From contig JAKLKB010000189.1 in the NCBI GenBank assembly GCA_023150835.1, positions 1-8,524 of the forward strand: 8,524 nt of DNA, read 5' to 3'. Under the pieces are notes generated by a model. The model had not been told where the DNA came from. It saw nothing but the letters and a program-made list of their open reading frames with translations, and did not search any database. The translations under genes and the position numbers were made by a program. Below are positions 2,779-8,456 of this stretch, piece after piece. The stretch's first letter is position 1. Every line of letters begins with the position of its first letter. The stretch comes from Myxococcota bacterium. Its GTDB lineage: Bacteria > Myxococcota_C > UBA6777.

Positions 2779-4356
2779 TCAGGGGAGGCAATACTTGGGT
2801 TGGAGGGGGTCGGGTTGTGCGCAGAAGGTTCCAAATTTGGCGCATACAGCGGGGTTATCGACGCAAGTGATCACGCATTGCTTGGTATCGCTAGACGCAG
2901 GTGGAGCGAAATAGCCCGTGCAAGCGGCACAATTGACGTTCTTGCAAGCGGTCGAGATGCTGGCGTCGGGAAGAGGGGTGCAGTCAGGTTGCCCGTTGCA
3001 GGTCTCGTTGGAGCAAAAGCCGATGGGACGGAGATCATAGGTTTTCAGAGGAATGAAGCAGCGCAAACCCGCTTCGCAATTTTCATCAAAGAGTTCGCAG
3101 CTTTCCCAACGTTTTCGTACACCTGCTGGGACACAGGCTTTGATGGATTTGAACACGCCCGTTTCGACCCGATGCCCCAGCGTAATGCACTTCTCTCGCG
3201 TGGAACCGCCCGTACAGTCCGAGTCAGACGCACACGTCTTCAAACAAAGCTTGCGCGTTGTCACAAGATGCGGAGTCTTGAGCTCTGTACATGTTTTGCC
3301 CGCAGAGCAAGGCGAGCCCTCGCAGATCTGGGTACATCGAGCAGCCGCAGGAGAAGGCAGGCAGAGGTTGCCCGTCGCACACAGATCGCCATTTCGACCG
3401 CAAGGAGCGCCATCACGACCGTTGTTGGTGGGATTCTCGCACAGCTTGCTGGTCGGGTTGCAAAATTGCCCGCGTGGGCAGGTCTTGTAAAGTTCGTCCA
3501 GACTGCACGGTATGCCCGGTCCTTGGGGGGGGAAGACCGCAAGGCAGAACGCTCCAAATCCCACACGCGCCCGAGCGCACAACAACCCGTTTGGGCAGGG
3601 CGCACCCGTTGGATCGCAAGACTGTAAGCAGTAGCCTTCGGCTTTTCCGCTCGGTCGCATACAAAACAAACCGCCCGAACAAGGTATCGTGTCGCTACAC
3701 TTGATCAGTCCGCATTCGTCGTCGGCTGCATCGAGCTTTCCGTCGCAATCGTTGTCGATCTTGTCGTCGCAGATCTCTTTGGCAGGAACAACGGCCTCGC
3801 TACAAGCGCTCCATGTGTTGTTTTCGCACTTTTGAAAGCCCGCTTTGCAAGGGCTGGTGCAAGTATACTTTCCCTCGGCTTCTTTGGTGCAGCCTGTCGA
3901 AGCCTCGTAGCATGGGCGAGTTTCGCCTGCTTTGCAGGTGCAGTTGTCGTCGGTTTTTCCGTCGCAGTTGTCGTCGATCTGGTTTCCACAGACTTCACTG
4001 CTTGCGGGAGCGACTTCGCCCGTGCATACGCCCCATGCGTTGGCTTTGCAGGTCTGTGCGCCTGCTTTGCACGCTCCCACGCATTTGTAGGTACCGTCAG
4101 CTTGCTTGGTGCAGCCTGTGGTGGGCGTATAACACGGGCGGCTCTCGTTGTCTTTGCAGACCACAGGGGTGGCTTGGACGGCCTTGCATTGTCCGTTTTG
4201 GCACGTCCAAGAACCCGCACAATCCGCGTTGCTTGAACAAGCGCTCGTGAGTTGAGGCGAAAGAGTGGGCGGGCTGCTACAAGCGATCCACAACAACCAC
4301 GCAGTCGAGAGCAACAGGCTCGCGGTACGTCCGAGGCGAAGGGATGAGGTCTTCAT
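2779..4356 (-). CDS. Cysteine-rich lipoprotein with two MopE-type metal-binding-like motifs
   Basis: The 525-residue product starts at the ATG complementary to 4354-4356, with GGAG seven bases upstream; the frame stays open further upstream only through the repeat leader. A signal peptide ends LLWIAC, making Cys26 the lipid anchor. About 63 of 525 residues are Cys. A short motif, C40-C46-C52-C57, comes first. Two duplicated modules of about 75 residues follow (67-140 and 141-216). Each has RPCY..(T/S)TGCTK, then CKAG, then a final EVCGNQIDDNCDGKTDDNC or EICDDKIDNDCDGKLD segment. These ends match the 'putative metal-binding motif' of MopE-like proteins, common in myxobacterial surface proteins. 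Residues 217-525 hold further irregular Cys-pair repeats (PCxxGxxC type). The protein is probably extracytoplasmic and disulfide-rich. Metal binding is family knowledge, not shown here, and the actual role is unknown. It lies 167 bp behind thrS on the same strand and may be reached by read-through. Confidence 0.85.
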   Translation of the reverse strand: MKTSSLRLGRTASLLLSTAWLLWIACSSPPTLSPQLTSACSSNADCAGSWTCQNGQCKAVQATPVVCKDNESRPCYTPTTGCTKQADGTYKCVGACKAGAQTCKANAWGVCTGEVAPASSEVCGNQIDDNCDGKTDDNCTCKAGETRPCYEASTGCTKEAEGKYTCTSPCKAGFQKCENNTWSACSEAVVPAKEICDDKIDNDCDGKLDAADDECGLIKCSDTIPCSGGLFCMRPSGKAEGYCLQSCDPTGAPCPNGLLCARARVGFGAFCLAVFPPQGPGIPCSLDELYKTCPRGQFCNPTSKLCENPTNNGRDGAPCGRNGDLCATGNLCLPSPAAARCTQICEGSPCSAGKTCTELKTPHLVTTRKLCLKTCASDSDCTGGSTREKCITLGHRVETGVFKSIKACVPAGVRKRWESCELFDENCEAGLRCFIPLKTYDLRPIGFCSNETCNGQPDCTPLPDASISTACKNVNCAACTGYFAPPASSDTKQCVITCVDNPAVCAKFGTFCAQPDPLQPKYCLP

Positions 4357-4361
4357 CAAAA

Positions 4362-4499
4362 ATCTCCGCGTGTGAAGGCAGAAGATCTCCGCTTGTAAAG
4401 GCAGGATATCTTCGCTTGTAAAGGCAGGATATCTTCGCGTGTGTAGGCAGAAGATCTTCGCGTGTGAAGGCAGAAGATCTTCGCTTGTAAAAGCGGATC
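4362..4499. repeat. Six head-to-tail copies of a 23-bp repeat in the leader of the Cys-rich lipoprotein gene
   Basis: The units are 4362-4384, 4385-4407, 4408-4430, 4431-4453, 4454-4476 and 4477-4499, each exactly 23 bp with no indels. On the plus strand each starts ATCTYCGC and has a GGC or GCGG core near base 14. Two unit types occur. One has GCGTGTG with a GAAG end (units 1, 4, 5). The other has GCTTGTA with a GGAT or GATC end (units 2, 3, 6). Junctions between type-one units and their neighbours create the 10-bp palindrome GAAGATCTTC. The array fills most of the 167 bp between the thrS stop and the lipoprotein ATG. There are no spacers, so it is not CRISPR. A 23-bp step is not a multiple of three, so it does not encode a peptide repeat. 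Confidence 0.93.
4364..4367 (-). promoter_or_regulatory. Ribosome binding site contributed by the last 23-bp repeat unit
   Basis: On the minus strand GGAG lies seven bases before the ATG at 4356. It belongs to the repeat unit nearest the gene. The same position reads GAAG in four of the other five units and GGAG in the second, so the repeat array supplies the start signal of the gene. Confidence 0.65.
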
Positions 4500-4523
4500 T
4501 TGTGCGGCCCGCTCCAAAGATGC

Positions 4524-6332
4524 CTACTCTTCGAGCGGATTGGCGGGATGAGAGTTGCGACGCAAACGGATCTCGTCGGCGATCCAAGCCGCAAACGCTT
4601 CGACTCCAAAGGTTTCTTGTTCTTTTTGCCCGTAGCGCCGCAGTGTGACATCTTCTTTGTCGCGCTCGTTGCCACCCACGATCAGCAGGTTGGGGATCTT
4701 TTGAACGGTGCCGTTGCGGATCTTTTTGCTAAAAGAATCGTTCGACAGGTCGGCTTCGGCACGCACGCTGTTTTGGCGAAGGCGCGCACGAACTTTATCT
4801 GCATAATCGAAAAACTCAGGTGCAACGGGGATGACACGCGCTTGGATCGGCGCAAGCCACGTCGGAAATGCCCCACCGTAATGCTCGATCAAAAAGCTGA
4901 TAAAGCGTTCGTGTGTGCCGAGCGGTGCGCGGTGGATGATGTAAGGATAGCGTGTTTGTCCATCAGGTCCGGTGTATTCGAGTTGAAAACGCGGGCCGCT
5001 GGTGAAATCAAGCTGGTTGGTACTCGCGGTCTCTTCGCGCCCAACGACGTTCGAGACTTGAAAGTCGATCTTGGGTCCGTAAAAGGCCGCTTCTCCCGCG
5101 ACTTCTTCGTAGTCGATGCCGATCTCTTGGAGGACTCCGCGCAACAGATTGACGGTTTTGTCCCATTCATCGAAGTTATCGACAAACTTGTCTTTGTTTT
5201 GATCGTGAACAGACAGCCGCACCCAATAGTTGGAAAGGCCGAACAGATCGTAGTAATACTTGTGCATCTCCATGACTTTTTTGAGCTCATCGCGGACGTG
5301 GCTTTCGTCGCAATACAGATGCGCGTCGTTCATGTACATCCCGCGCACACGCAGCAGCCCCGCCAACTCGCCCGAACGCTCGAAGCGATAGACTTGGCCG
5401 TATTCGGCAAGACGCAACGGAAGATCGCGGTAAGAGCGGATCAACGCCTTGCAGATCGTGTGATGGTGCGGACAGTTCATCGGTTTGAGATAGTACTCTT
5501 CATCATCAAGGATCATCGGCGGATACATGCTGTCTTTGTAATAAGGCAAGTGGCCGCTGATGTGATAGAGCTTGCTTTGGGTGATATGTGGCGTGGCGAC
5601 GCGATCGTAGCCGTAGGCAAACTCGGTCTCACGCGCAAGTTGTTCGAGGGAGTCACGAATCGCCGTTCCTTTGGGCATCCACAACGGAAGACCTTTGCCG
5701 ACATCTTCGGAGATCGTGAACAGATCCAACTCACGGCCTAATTTGCGGTGATCGCGCTCTTGGGCCAGTTTGCGGCGCTTTTCAAACAACACCAGTTCTT
5801 CGGGAGTTTCAAAGGCCAGCCCGTAGATACGGGTCATCATGACATTTTTTTCATCGCCGCGCCAATACGCTCCTGCGATGCTGTCGAGCTTAAAGGCTTT
5901 GAAAGGCAGGTCGCTGGTCTTTTCGACGTGCGGCCCTTCGCACATATCAGTAAAGGGACCGTTGGTGTAAAAGCTGATCTCTTCGCCTTGTTCGATAAAC
6001 TCTTTGACCAACTCCAGCTTGTATTCTTCGCCGCGTTGTTGGAGGAATTCCACCGCTTTTTGGGCGGGCAATACAAAACGCTCAAAGGTTTGTTTTTCTT
6101 TGATAATCTTTTTCATGCGCTGCTCGATCTCTTTGAGATCTTCGGCTTCGAGCGGGCGCGGCAGCATGAAGTCGTAGTAAAATCCCGTATCGATCGGAGG
6201 CCCGATCCCAAGCTTCACGTCTCCCTGCTTGGCGTCCGCAAAGTAAGACAACACCGCTTGCGCCATCACATGGGCTAGACTGTGCCGATATTTGTACAGT
6301 TGGCTGTTTTTGTCGAGCACTTGCTTCTTCAT
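4524..6332 (-). CDS. thrS: Threonyl-tRNA synthetase (ThrRS) without TGS domain
   Basis: The 602-residue enzyme charges tRNA-Thr with threonine in the cytoplasm and should hydrolyse mischarged Ser-tRNA. The start at 6332 (MKKQVLDKNS) has GGGAG ten bases upstream. The editing domain begins almost at once, with HSLAH (17-21) and CEGPH (131-135) giving its four conserved His/Cys residues. The class II core follows: MNCPHHH with zinc-ligand Cys287, motif 2 YRFERSGELAGLLRVRG (315-331), NDAH with His338, QLDF (440-443), His467 and motif 3 GTHERF (472-477). The anticodon-binding domain runs from about 495 to the end. The usual N-terminal TGS domain of about 60 residues is missing: the frame upstream of Met1 is open but encodes only repeat-derived residues. 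The segment before QLDF reads REETASTN rather than the E. coli-like RAWQCGTV. No infC, rpmI or rplT follows, unlike many bacteria. Confidence 0.96.
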   Translation of the reverse strand: MKKQVLDKNSQLYKYRHSLAHVMAQAVLSYFADAKQGDVKLGIGPPIDTGFYYDFMLPRPLEAEDLKEIEQRMKKIIKEKQTFERFVLPAQKAVEFLQQRGEEYKLELVKEFIEQGEEISFYTNGPFTDMCEGPHVEKTSDLPFKAFKLDSIAGAYWRGDEKNVMMTRIYGLAFETPEELVLFEKRRKLAQERDHRKLGRELDLFTISEDVGKGLPLWMPKGTAIRDSLEQLARETEFAYGYDRVATPHITQSKLYHISGHLPYYKDSMYPPMILDDEEYYLKPMNCPHHHTICKALIRSYRDLPLRLAEYGQVYRFERSGELAGLLRVRGMYMNDAHLYCDESHVRDELKKVMEMHKYYYDLFGLSNYWVRLSVHDQNKDKFVDNFDEWDKTVNLLRGVLQEIGIDYEEVAGEAAFYGPKIDFQVSNVVGREETASTNQLDFTSGPRFQLEYTGPDGQTRYPYIIHRAPLGTHERFISFLIEHYGGAFPTWLAPIQARVIPVAPEFFDYADKVRARLRQNSVRAEADLSNDSFSKKIRNGTVQKIPNLLIVGGNERDKEDVTLRRYGQKEQETFGVEAFAAWIADEIRLRRNSHPANPLEE

Positions 6333-6342
6333 CAAAAAAAGT

Positions 6343-6347
6343 CTCCC
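6343..6347 (-). promoter_or_regulatory. Ribosome binding site of thrS
   Basis: GGGAG on the minus strand lies ten bases before the ATG at 6332, separated by ACTTTTTTTG. It fixes the start at MKKQ and argues against a longer product extending into the minisatellite. Confidence 0.7.
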
Positions 6348-6379
6348 TACGTCGGATCTTTTTGTTTGGGGGGTTGACC

Positions 6380-6395
6380 ACCAAGCTACCTTGGT
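6380..6395. promoter_or_regulatory. Perfect 6+6 inverted repeat upstream of thrS
   Basis: ACCAAG and CTTGGT are separated by CTAC, about 50 bases before the thrS start codon in the divergent intergenic region. The size and spacing would suit a dimeric repressor site or a short RNA hairpin in the thrS leader. It is a single occurrence, so chance remains possible. Confidence 0.25.
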
Positions 6396-6481: not shown

Positions 6482-6521
6482 CAAGGCCACAAAACGCGGA
6501 TGAAACAAAGCAATGTCCACG

Positions 6522-6746
6522 GAAAACACGGAAGACACGGAAAACACAGAAGACACAGAAGACACAGAAGACACAGAAGACACAGAAGACACAGAAGACA
6601 CAGAAGACACAGAAGACACAGAAGACACAGAAGACACGGAAGACACGGAAGACACGGAAGACACGGAAGACACAGAAGACACAGAAGACACAGAAGACAC
6701 AGAAGACACAGAAGACACAGAAGACACAGAAGACACGGAAGACACG
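6522..6746. repeat. 9-bp minisatellite, 25 copies, between thrS and the WD40 lipoprotein gene
   Basis: The unit is GAAGACACR. Twenty-five copies run without indels; the first and third have GAAAAC in place of GAAGAC. The last base alternates in blocks (G, then a long run of A, four G, a further run of A, two G), which suggests block duplication as well as slippage. Because the unit is three codons long, every frame stays open: (EDT)n on plus frame 6513-6764, (RRH)n in a second plus frame, and VFC-, LLC- or SSV-type repeats on the minus strand. The 83-codon (EDT)n frame starts at ATG 6513 without a good ribosome binding site and stops 3 bases before the WD40 start. It is more likely a by-product of the repeat than a gene. 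Confidence 0.95.
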
Positions 6747-6757
6747 GAAGGGAAAAC

Positions 6758-6767: not shown

Positions 6768-8117
6768 ATGCGTGTGATGGTCGGTTGGTGGTGTTTGGGT
6801 TGCGTGTGGTTGTGTTGGGGTTGTGAGCGAAAGAGCCGTGAGGAGATCCCGAAGCCTCCGAGCGTTTCGGGTCGAACTGCGTTGTGTGAGAGGGAAGGGA
6901 TCTTGGGATCTGAGCCTGTGGTGGGTGGGCGATGTACGAAAGAGGCCGATTGTGGGGCAGAACGAGCGGCATGGAGGCGTTGTGTAGCGGGGCGTTGTGT
7001 GGTGGCGGGTGGAACGCAAGAGGACGGTCATCAAGCGGCTGTGCGGGCAGCGGTGTTTTTGAGTGAGCGGGCGATTGCAAGTGCCGATGAATCGGGGATG
7101 ATCTGGCTGTGGCGGAGAGATGGTGTGCGGTGGCGTCCTTGGCATGGGTGGAAAGGGCATACGGGTGCGATCTTGGCCTTGGAGCGGGGGGCTGCGGGGT
7201 ATCTGTTGAGCGGTGGGGTGGGCGGTGTGCGGGTGTGGGATCTGCGCAGGCGTGTGTTGGTCGCGGATTGGCCGGTACAAGGAGAAGTGCAGGCGTTGGC
7301 GTGGTCTGAAAAACATCAGCGGATCGCCATCTCTTCGACCGATCGGGTGGTTAGGTGGCGAGCTTGGCCGAAGGGTGGAGTGTTTGGGGGAGATAAAAAA
7401 GCGAGTGGAAGGGATGAAAAAGCGAGTGGAAGGGATGAAAAAGCGAGTGGAAGGGATGAAACAGCGAGCGGGGGGTGGAGCGGTGAGGTCGGTGTGTGTG
7501 ATGTCGTGCGGTCTTTGGCGTGGGAGGTCGATGGATCGGGGCGTTTGGCGGGTGGTGGGGATGATGGCTTGTTGTGGATATGGGATGTCAAACGGGCTAA
7601 ACAACGGGGATCATGGCTTGTGGAGCGTTGGAGCGGGCATCGTGGGTGGTTGCGCCGTGTGGGGTGGTGGGGAGAGCGGCCTGTGACGGTGGGATTTGAT
7701 GGCACGATACGGGTGTGGGATCTGCGAAGAGGTCGGAGTGTTCGTGTGGGGGAGGAAGGCCCCTCGCTGCCGTTGTTGTTGGGGCGGGTGGAGCGGTGTG
7801 TGGCCTCGATGGAGCAGAAGAAAAGCGTAGAGGCTGTTGTTTGGAAAAGGCGATGGATCGGGGGAGACCCCTTGGGGATGGCGTTGTTTTCGCGGCGTGG
7901 TTGGGGCGTGGTGGGCGCACACCGAGAGGGGTGGTTGCGCTGGCCTGATGCGGAAGGTTCGGAAGTGGTGGTGTGGTCGCTTCGTGAAGCAAAGCAGCAT
8001 TGCCGTGTGCGTGAGCATCTGTTGGGGGTGCGTGTGGTGGCAGGATCGCCCAAAGAGAGGCGCTTTGTTTCGGGTTCGGATGATGGGACGTTGCGTGTCT
8101 TTCGTCTGGGGCTTTGA
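6768..8117 (+). CDS. WD40 beta-propeller protein, predicted lipoprotein, with N-terminal four-Cys motif
   Basis: The 449-residue product opens with a short Trp/Cys-rich hydrophobic segment (MRVMVGWWCLGCVWLCWGC). Cys19 after Gly is the likely lipid anchor, although the lipobox is poor. A small Cys motif at 56-77 (RCTKEADC...RRCVAGRC) resembles residues 40-57 of the neighbouring Cys-rich lipoprotein. Seven WD-like blades follow: about 88-118 (ends MIWLWR), 131-158 (VRVWD), 170-199 (VVRWRAW), 245-274 (LLWIWDV), 291-318 (IRVWDL), 340-403 (WLRWPD, VVWSL; irregular) and 417-446 (LRVFRL). That is enough for one complete propeller, normally a protein-binding platform. Between blades 3 and 4 sits an inserted loop of four 7-residue repeats (209-236). 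The partner is unknown. The location is probably extracytoplasmic, against the cytoplasmic norm for WD40 proteins. The coding strand is very G-rich. thrS is divergent, across the minisatellite. Confidence 0.88.
   Translation: MRVMVGWWCLGCVWLCWGCERKSREEIPKPPSVSGRTALCEREGILGSEPVVGGRCTKEADCGAERAAWRRCVAGRCVVAGGTQEDGHQAAVRAAVFLSERAIASADESGMIWLWRRDGVRWRPWHGWKGHTGAILALERGAAGYLLSGGVGGVRVWDLRRRVLVADWPVQGEVQALAWSEKHQRIAISSTDRVVRWRAWPKGGVFGGDKKASGRDEKASGRDEKASGRDETASGGWSGEVGVCDVVRSLAWEVDGSGRLAGGGDDGLLWIWDVKRAKQRGSWLVERWSGHRGWLRRVGWWGERPVTVGFDGTIRVWDLRRGRSVRVGEEGPSLPLLLGRVERCVASMEQKKSVEAVVWKRRWIGGDPLGMALFSRRGWGVVGAHREGWLRWPDAEGSEVVVWSLREAKQHCRVREHLLGVRVVAGSPKERRFVSGSDDGTLRVFRLGL
7392..7475 (+). repeat. 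In-frame 21-bp tandem repeat inside the WD40 gene
   Basis: Four copies (7392-7412, 7413-7433, 7434-7454, 7455-7475) encode DKKASGR, DEKASGR, DEKASGR and DETASGG. The two middle copies are identical in DNA and the outer copies diverge, which points to recent expansion. The repeat lies in the connection between blades 3 and 4, where a hydrophilic loop can vary in length without breaking the fold. Confidence 0.93.
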
Positions 8118-8300: not shown

Positions 8301-8338
8301 AACCTGCGATCTCTTCGCCAACCTGCGATCTCTTCGCC
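8301..8338. repeat. Exact 19-bp direct duplication
   Basis: AACCTGCGATCTCTTCGCC occurs twice back to back with no mismatch, followed by AA. Each copy contains a small dyad, GCGA and TCGC around TCTCT. Function unknown. Confidence 0.9.
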
Positions 8339-8350
8339 AATACGGGGTCA

Positions 8351-8456
8351 AGGGGGCAGGGCTCCCTTGTGGGGGGTGGGGTTCCACCCCATAGGCGTTA
8401 GGTGAAGCGCTTGTTGGCCCCCCCCACCCCAGCCCTCCCCCGTGAACAGGGGAGGG
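8351..8456. repeat. GC-rich multi-hairpin intergenic repeat
   Basis: Three pairings are visible. TGGGGT (8377-8382) pairs with ACCCCA (8386-8391). CCCTCCCC (8433-8440) pairs perfectly with GGGGAGGG (8449-8456) around an 8-base loop. GGGGTGGGG (8373-8381) can pair with CCCCACCCC (8422-8430). Blocks of the type CCCTCCCCCGTGAAC...GGGGAGGG are, from memory, a common REP-like motif between genes of many bacteria, often mistranslated as 'SPVHGGGLGWG' frames. The G-runs on the plus strand could also form a quadruplex. Confidence 0.55.

Follow-up and report, generated by a model that had tools for sequence, protein, structure and literature searches.

Bacterial minisatellites, or variable-number tandem repeats, consist of head-to-tail units of 10-100 bp, carry variants that are copied as blocks, lie between genes and differ in copy number among relatives. 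The tandem repeat analyzed here shares all of these features and differs in nothing essential, except that its gene-proximal unit also serves, credibly, as a Shine-Dalgarno sequence. Repeat-number phase variation offers a second comparison: there, as here, a repeat tract sits between an upstream gene and a start codon, and repeat number differs here by species. Unlike in such systems, the units are 23 bp long and imperfect, no promoter was recognized, and the variation is seen between species. A third described system comprises the IscB/HEARO (OMEGA) elements of the IS200/IS605 superfamily: a remnant at the orthologous locus of a sister species matches the ends that follow HEARO RNA and IscB, and it joins ATGA, whereas our own locus retains no recognizable element sequence beyond a possible unit core, a footprint at most. 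An IsrB relative is reported to prefer an NTGA target-adjacent motif (PMC9581776), and PMC5850271 describes A as enriched after bacterial start codons.

The window (the whole stretch analyzed, 8,524 nt) is contig C145 of G000, a draft genome of 7.56 Mb in 239 contigs. Five genomes were compared (G000-G004), and the wider IscB search within the phylum took in these same five; G001 is a sister species in the same genus, G003 a member of another genus.

Anatomy of the array and its leader

The array fills the gap between two genes on the minus strand: thrS (threonyl-tRNA synthetase; 4524..6392, stop codon at 4524-4526, start codon approximate), its upstream neighbor, and a gene for a 525-aa Cys-rich protein with MopE-type metal-binding motifs and an apparent lipoprotein signal at its N-terminus (2779..4356). 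The latter belongs to a large family of MopE-motif, Cys-rich proteins, with 44 matches in the genome. Its ATG at 4356-4354, in the context ATGA, is supported as the start since DNA homology with G001 picks up again there; the flanking genes of G000 and G001 are 92-96% identical in DNA. On the other side, a short minus-strand spacer from the thrS stop to the array (4499..4523) ends in GCACAAG, the left array boundary common to both species.

TRF matched 4362-4488 at period 23 (score 170) and 4362-4498 at period 69 (score 209). Unit-by-unit reading placed the starts at 4362 (type A), 4385 (B), 4408 (B), 4431 (A'), 4454 (A) and 4477 (B'), giving the order B', A, A', B, B, A in gene direction. The sequence-only reading had described six 23-bp units of exact periodicity: the six units are real, but because the thrS-proximal sixth has 22 bp (ATCCGCTTTTACAAGCGAAGAT, one T short), the periodicity is inexact and the array, five 23-bp units plus one of 22 bp on the minus strand (4362..4498), ends at 4498. 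The two unit types with linked end and middle variants were found as described (type A, GCGTGTG with a GAAG end; type B, GCTTGTA with a GGAT or GATC end), and the co-varying bases are consistent with block copying of two unit lineages, no compensation being needed. GGAG (minus strand) was present in the gene-proximal unit and GAAG in four of the five others, again in agreement with that reading, the fifth, its neighbor, also carrying GGAG.

The leader ends in GGAG-ATTTTTG-ATG, which places the gene-proximal GGAG (4364..4367, minus strand) at a spacing of 7 nt to the ATG. In 240 long ORFs from the survey DNA (a crude set in which some frames are spurious), GGAG peaked at spacings of 5-9 ahead of the first ATG (18 at 6, 12 at 7). 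Since its spacing fits this profile, the GGAG is a credible Shine-Dalgarno sequence, and the proposal that the gene-proximal unit supplies the ribosome binding site is credible for G000. The companion proposal, that GAAG in the other units acts as a weaker signal of the same kind, failed: GAAG was flat before the same ORF starts, enriched at no spacing, and is thus no weaker ribosome-binding motif here.

The leader RNA has a folding energy of -50.6 kcal/mol (z -3.3 versus dinucleotide shuffles), and 8.3% of 1000 repeat-preserving permutations, in which the 23 columns were permuted alike in every unit, fold as stably as the array; the extra folding stability stems mostly from repetition. One type B unit barely folds, and an alignment confined to eight units yielded no clear excess of pairs and no covariation above shuffles for a unit hairpin. 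No Rfam family was found in the window and no promoter-like site in the array and leader region. A structured RNA was rejected given the absence of an Rfam match, the weak result against repeat-preserving permutations and the lack of covariation, and the suggestion of a structured or protein-bound unit drew no support from the permutation and covariation results. An intrinsic terminator of thrS was likewise set aside, the single terminator-like match, at the last unit, being within chance.

Distribution of the unit and of other tandem repeats

Across the five genomes, a degenerate pattern of the unit matched without mismatches only at this locus and at its G001 counterpart; two other matches in G000 were single copies with 2 mismatches each. 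An operator or regulon repeat was rejected on these grounds, and the search for the unit upstream of other lipoprotein genes, which the sequence-only reading had put forward, returned this locus only. The orthologous G001 locus holds two units, one of them identical to the gene-proximal G000 unit over 25 bases. Copy number is therefore variable in that it differs between species, 6 versus 2, as counted from two genomes of the genus, one per species and both draft assemblies, in which arrays can shrink during short-read assembly. G003 has the same gene order (WD40 - thrS - Cys-rich lipoprotein) and no array in the 170-bp gap, while in G002 and G004 the gene arrangement was absent at the loci found.

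The array is far above chance expectation, yet within what this genome shows elsewhere. In 424 kb of G000 surveyed for tandem repeats (5.6% of the genome), 126 non-overlapping arrays scored at least 50, 44 of them at least 170, or about 300 arrays per Mb. By the flank method, length differed between G000 and G001 in 7 of the 8 arrays with alignable flanks. An origin of the genome's minisatellites largely from IscB ends was considered and rejected, blastn-short giving mainly short, weak matches.

Other repeats were seen in passing. A 9-bp array (CACAGAAGA; window 6518-6750), 2 kb from the six-unit array, separates thrS from the divergent WD40 gene and has 26 copies, against two or three in its G001 counterpart. 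The WD40-repeat protein gene contains an in-frame 21-bp repeat (window 7392-7468) of about 3.7 copies, about equal in G001. A short stretch at window 8333-8391 was found twice in the sister contig and is a dispersed repeat near a 19-bp tandem repeat (8301-8340). Elsewhere in G000, a large CRISPR-like array with repeat GTTTCAAACCTTGTTTTGCTGGATAGATCGGGGGGAAC (L065:5260-9351; G000:C138:25260-29351) comprises dozens of repeats about 73 bp apart.

IscB/HEARO ends at start codons

The G001 leader contains about 70 bp between array and ATG that are absent in G000. A 62-base query from this insert had 17 matches in G000 and 22 in G001; the aligned copies have in common AAGAAAGGAC, a hairpin and a CGATGA end, beyond which divergence is total. 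Homology extends further upstream in many copies, reaching some 0.9 kb or more for the longest, and the long copies start with HEARO RNA (RF02033), followed by an IscB gene. HEARO was located at G000:C135:2434, C172:53768 and C193:33982, with right ends on the same strand that stop at a distance of 0.9-1.6 kb from where HEARO begins. RF02033 scored below the family cut-off at C135:2434-2658 and C172:53768-53992 and above it at C193 and C226; it matched in none of 14 control genomes. Rfam at gathering score had given no match on the first dispersed loci; the RF02033 genome search did match. Intact-looking IscB proteins with RRXRR and HNH domains (RRXRR, PF14239, E=1.5e-59) are encoded at G000:C193 (476 aa) and G003:C35 (492 aa), the G003 protein matching solved IscB structures.

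A covariance model built of the element right end retrieved 22 copies in G000, 27 in G001 and 12 in G003, with no significant match at the G000 leader in the window. Because HEARO RNA and an IscB gene precede other copies of the same end, the G001 leader holds an IscB/HEARO (OMEGA) right end of about 76 nt, which meets the start-codon ATGA without a gap. With a mobile-element remnant of about 55 nt separating array and ATG, the ribosome binding site of the G001 gene does not come from the array. The dispersed copies had also been considered as a shared regulon leader, a candidate dropped once matches to HEARO and IscB identified them as mobile-element ends. At one locus (L106:5681-5859; G000:C225), before an hpf-like gene, an IscB right end is itself tandemly duplicated, as two copies of 89 bp that each end in ATGA.

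Such placement was the rule: in G000 and G001 together, ATGA adjoins 46 of 49 right ends and GTGA one, the two exceptions being weak matches. From 38 of the 49, a frame runs on for 60 codons or more, or until the fetched sequence stops; the corresponding share of all survey ATGA is 44% (p about 2e-6, which is optimistic, the copies being related). The right ends lie mostly at apparent gene starts, among them those of hpf, acp, tal, metK and glyS (examples from G000 and G001: L177:177-255, L164:61-139, L106:5692-5859, L017:3726-3801). Profile matches of the downstream proteins begin at residue 1 and profile position 1 for HPF, acyl carrier protein and YefM; at position 1 for transaldolase (residue 3) and MetK (residue 6); and at position 2 for GlyS (residue 6). 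An empty/occupied pair was found at tal: the G000 leader (L202) reads AAGGAGATTCCG-ATGAGCAAC, while in G001 ATGAGCAAC directly follows the element end, which severs the native Shine-Dalgarno of tal from the start codon. Right ends at ATGA or GTGA agree with the NTGA target-adjacent motif of the IsrB relative (PMC9581776).

Most ends in G000 and G001 consist of AAGAAAGGAC, the hairpin, nine bases (e.g., GAAGAGTCG or TTAAAAACG) and the ATG; those in G003 have AAAGG or GGAGG after the hairpin, about ten bases before ATGA. Two orthologous solo ends (G000:C207 and G001:C7) that have otherwise diverged retain AAGAAAGGACGGC and GAAGAG-CGATGA while the hairpin arms drift. If the hairpin looped out about 40 nt, AGGA would stand at a normal distance from the ATG. 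Phage T4 gene 38 has a similar looped-out hairpin arrangement. To judge from these motifs, the right ends may carry a ribosome binding site of their own; AAAGGAC doubles as IscB coding sequence (K-D) in intact elements and has other bases in some copies, and the copies are related.

Origin of the array

Taken together, the array is probably an intergenic minisatellite grown by tandem duplication in the lipoprotein leader, with the Shine-Dalgarno kept in the gene-proximal copy. That copy would have been, or would have become, the gene's own Shine-Dalgarno region; duplication would have put further copies upstream, most of which, being spare, would have drifted from GGAG to GAAG. Upstream gain and loss of units alters leader length, and any regulatory role for this would be hypothetical. 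In the G001 lineage, an IscB/HEARO element adjoins the start-codon ATGA and has been reduced to roughly its last 76 nt, so translation there must use a different leader. Growth by tandem duplication is supported by the confinement of the unit to a single locus, by six versus two units with none in G003, by the GGAG spacing, by the abundance of arrays in this genome and the length variation of most comparable ones between G000 and G001, by the copy-number difference of the 9-bp array, and by the unoccupied tal leader, which is of the same kind (AAGGAGATTCCG-ATGA, L202). The folding excess, largely repetition, and the lack of covariation support it as well; counted against it is that the stability of the array RNA lies within the upper 8% of permuted arrays.

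A different beginning, which we consider rather unlikely, is that IscB seeded the array: an ancestral insertion at ATGA, an internal deletion, duplication of a 23-bp tail segment (GCCTACACACGAAGA) and later loss of the hairpin in G000. The second G001 unit does continue unbroken into the element end (TTCTGCCTACACACGAAGAAAGGACGGCG), GCCTACACACG is present in array-free element copies elsewhere, and the match of unit A' to the tail of copy L100 outscored every one of 2000 shuffles in both directions; the duplicated end at G000:C225 provides a precedent for a right end turned tandem repeat. Yet the strong tail match is limited to one unit variant, an 11-base match of an array unit to a 1.5-kb element is no rarity, the window leader has no significant right-end match, and the later hairpin loss in G000 would have to remake a well-spaced GGAG by chance. 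Two orders of events can be framed: either the native leader gave rise to the array and the element would have reached the G001 lineage afterwards, accompanied by a deletion between array unit and element tail through GCCTACACACG, or the array would have grown from the tail of an older insertion whose hairpin G000 then lost. An array arising first, from the native leader, is favored by the well-spaced GGAG in G000 and by the tal leader. Far less probable still is the proposal of the sequence-only reading that unit number, or a factor binding the units, sets lipoprotein expression: the array fills the leader, varies in copy number and folds more stably than dinucleotide shuffles, but repeats of this size are commonplace here and neither covariation nor a promoter-like site was seen. 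A multi-site operator finds no support, as the unit recurs at no other gene in the genome, and neither does a conserved tunable leader, given the absence of the array in G003, despite the same gene order, and the remnant before the ATG in G001.

On the favored reading, the array itself is an ordinary tandem repeat that changes fast; of more interest, and worth following, are the IscB right ends at start codons. Our tentative reading of these sequences, which we hold as possible and somewhat doubtful, is that IscB/HEARO elements may lie before start codons since NTGA coincides with ATGA, that a portable ribosome binding site may keep the host gene translated, and that the array may be a leftover or neighbor of one such event. 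This would explain how a family of RNA-guided elements, related to the ancestors of Cas9, is tolerated repeatedly at the starts of core genes without destroying them, and the right ends would offer natural, directly testable portable translation-start modules.
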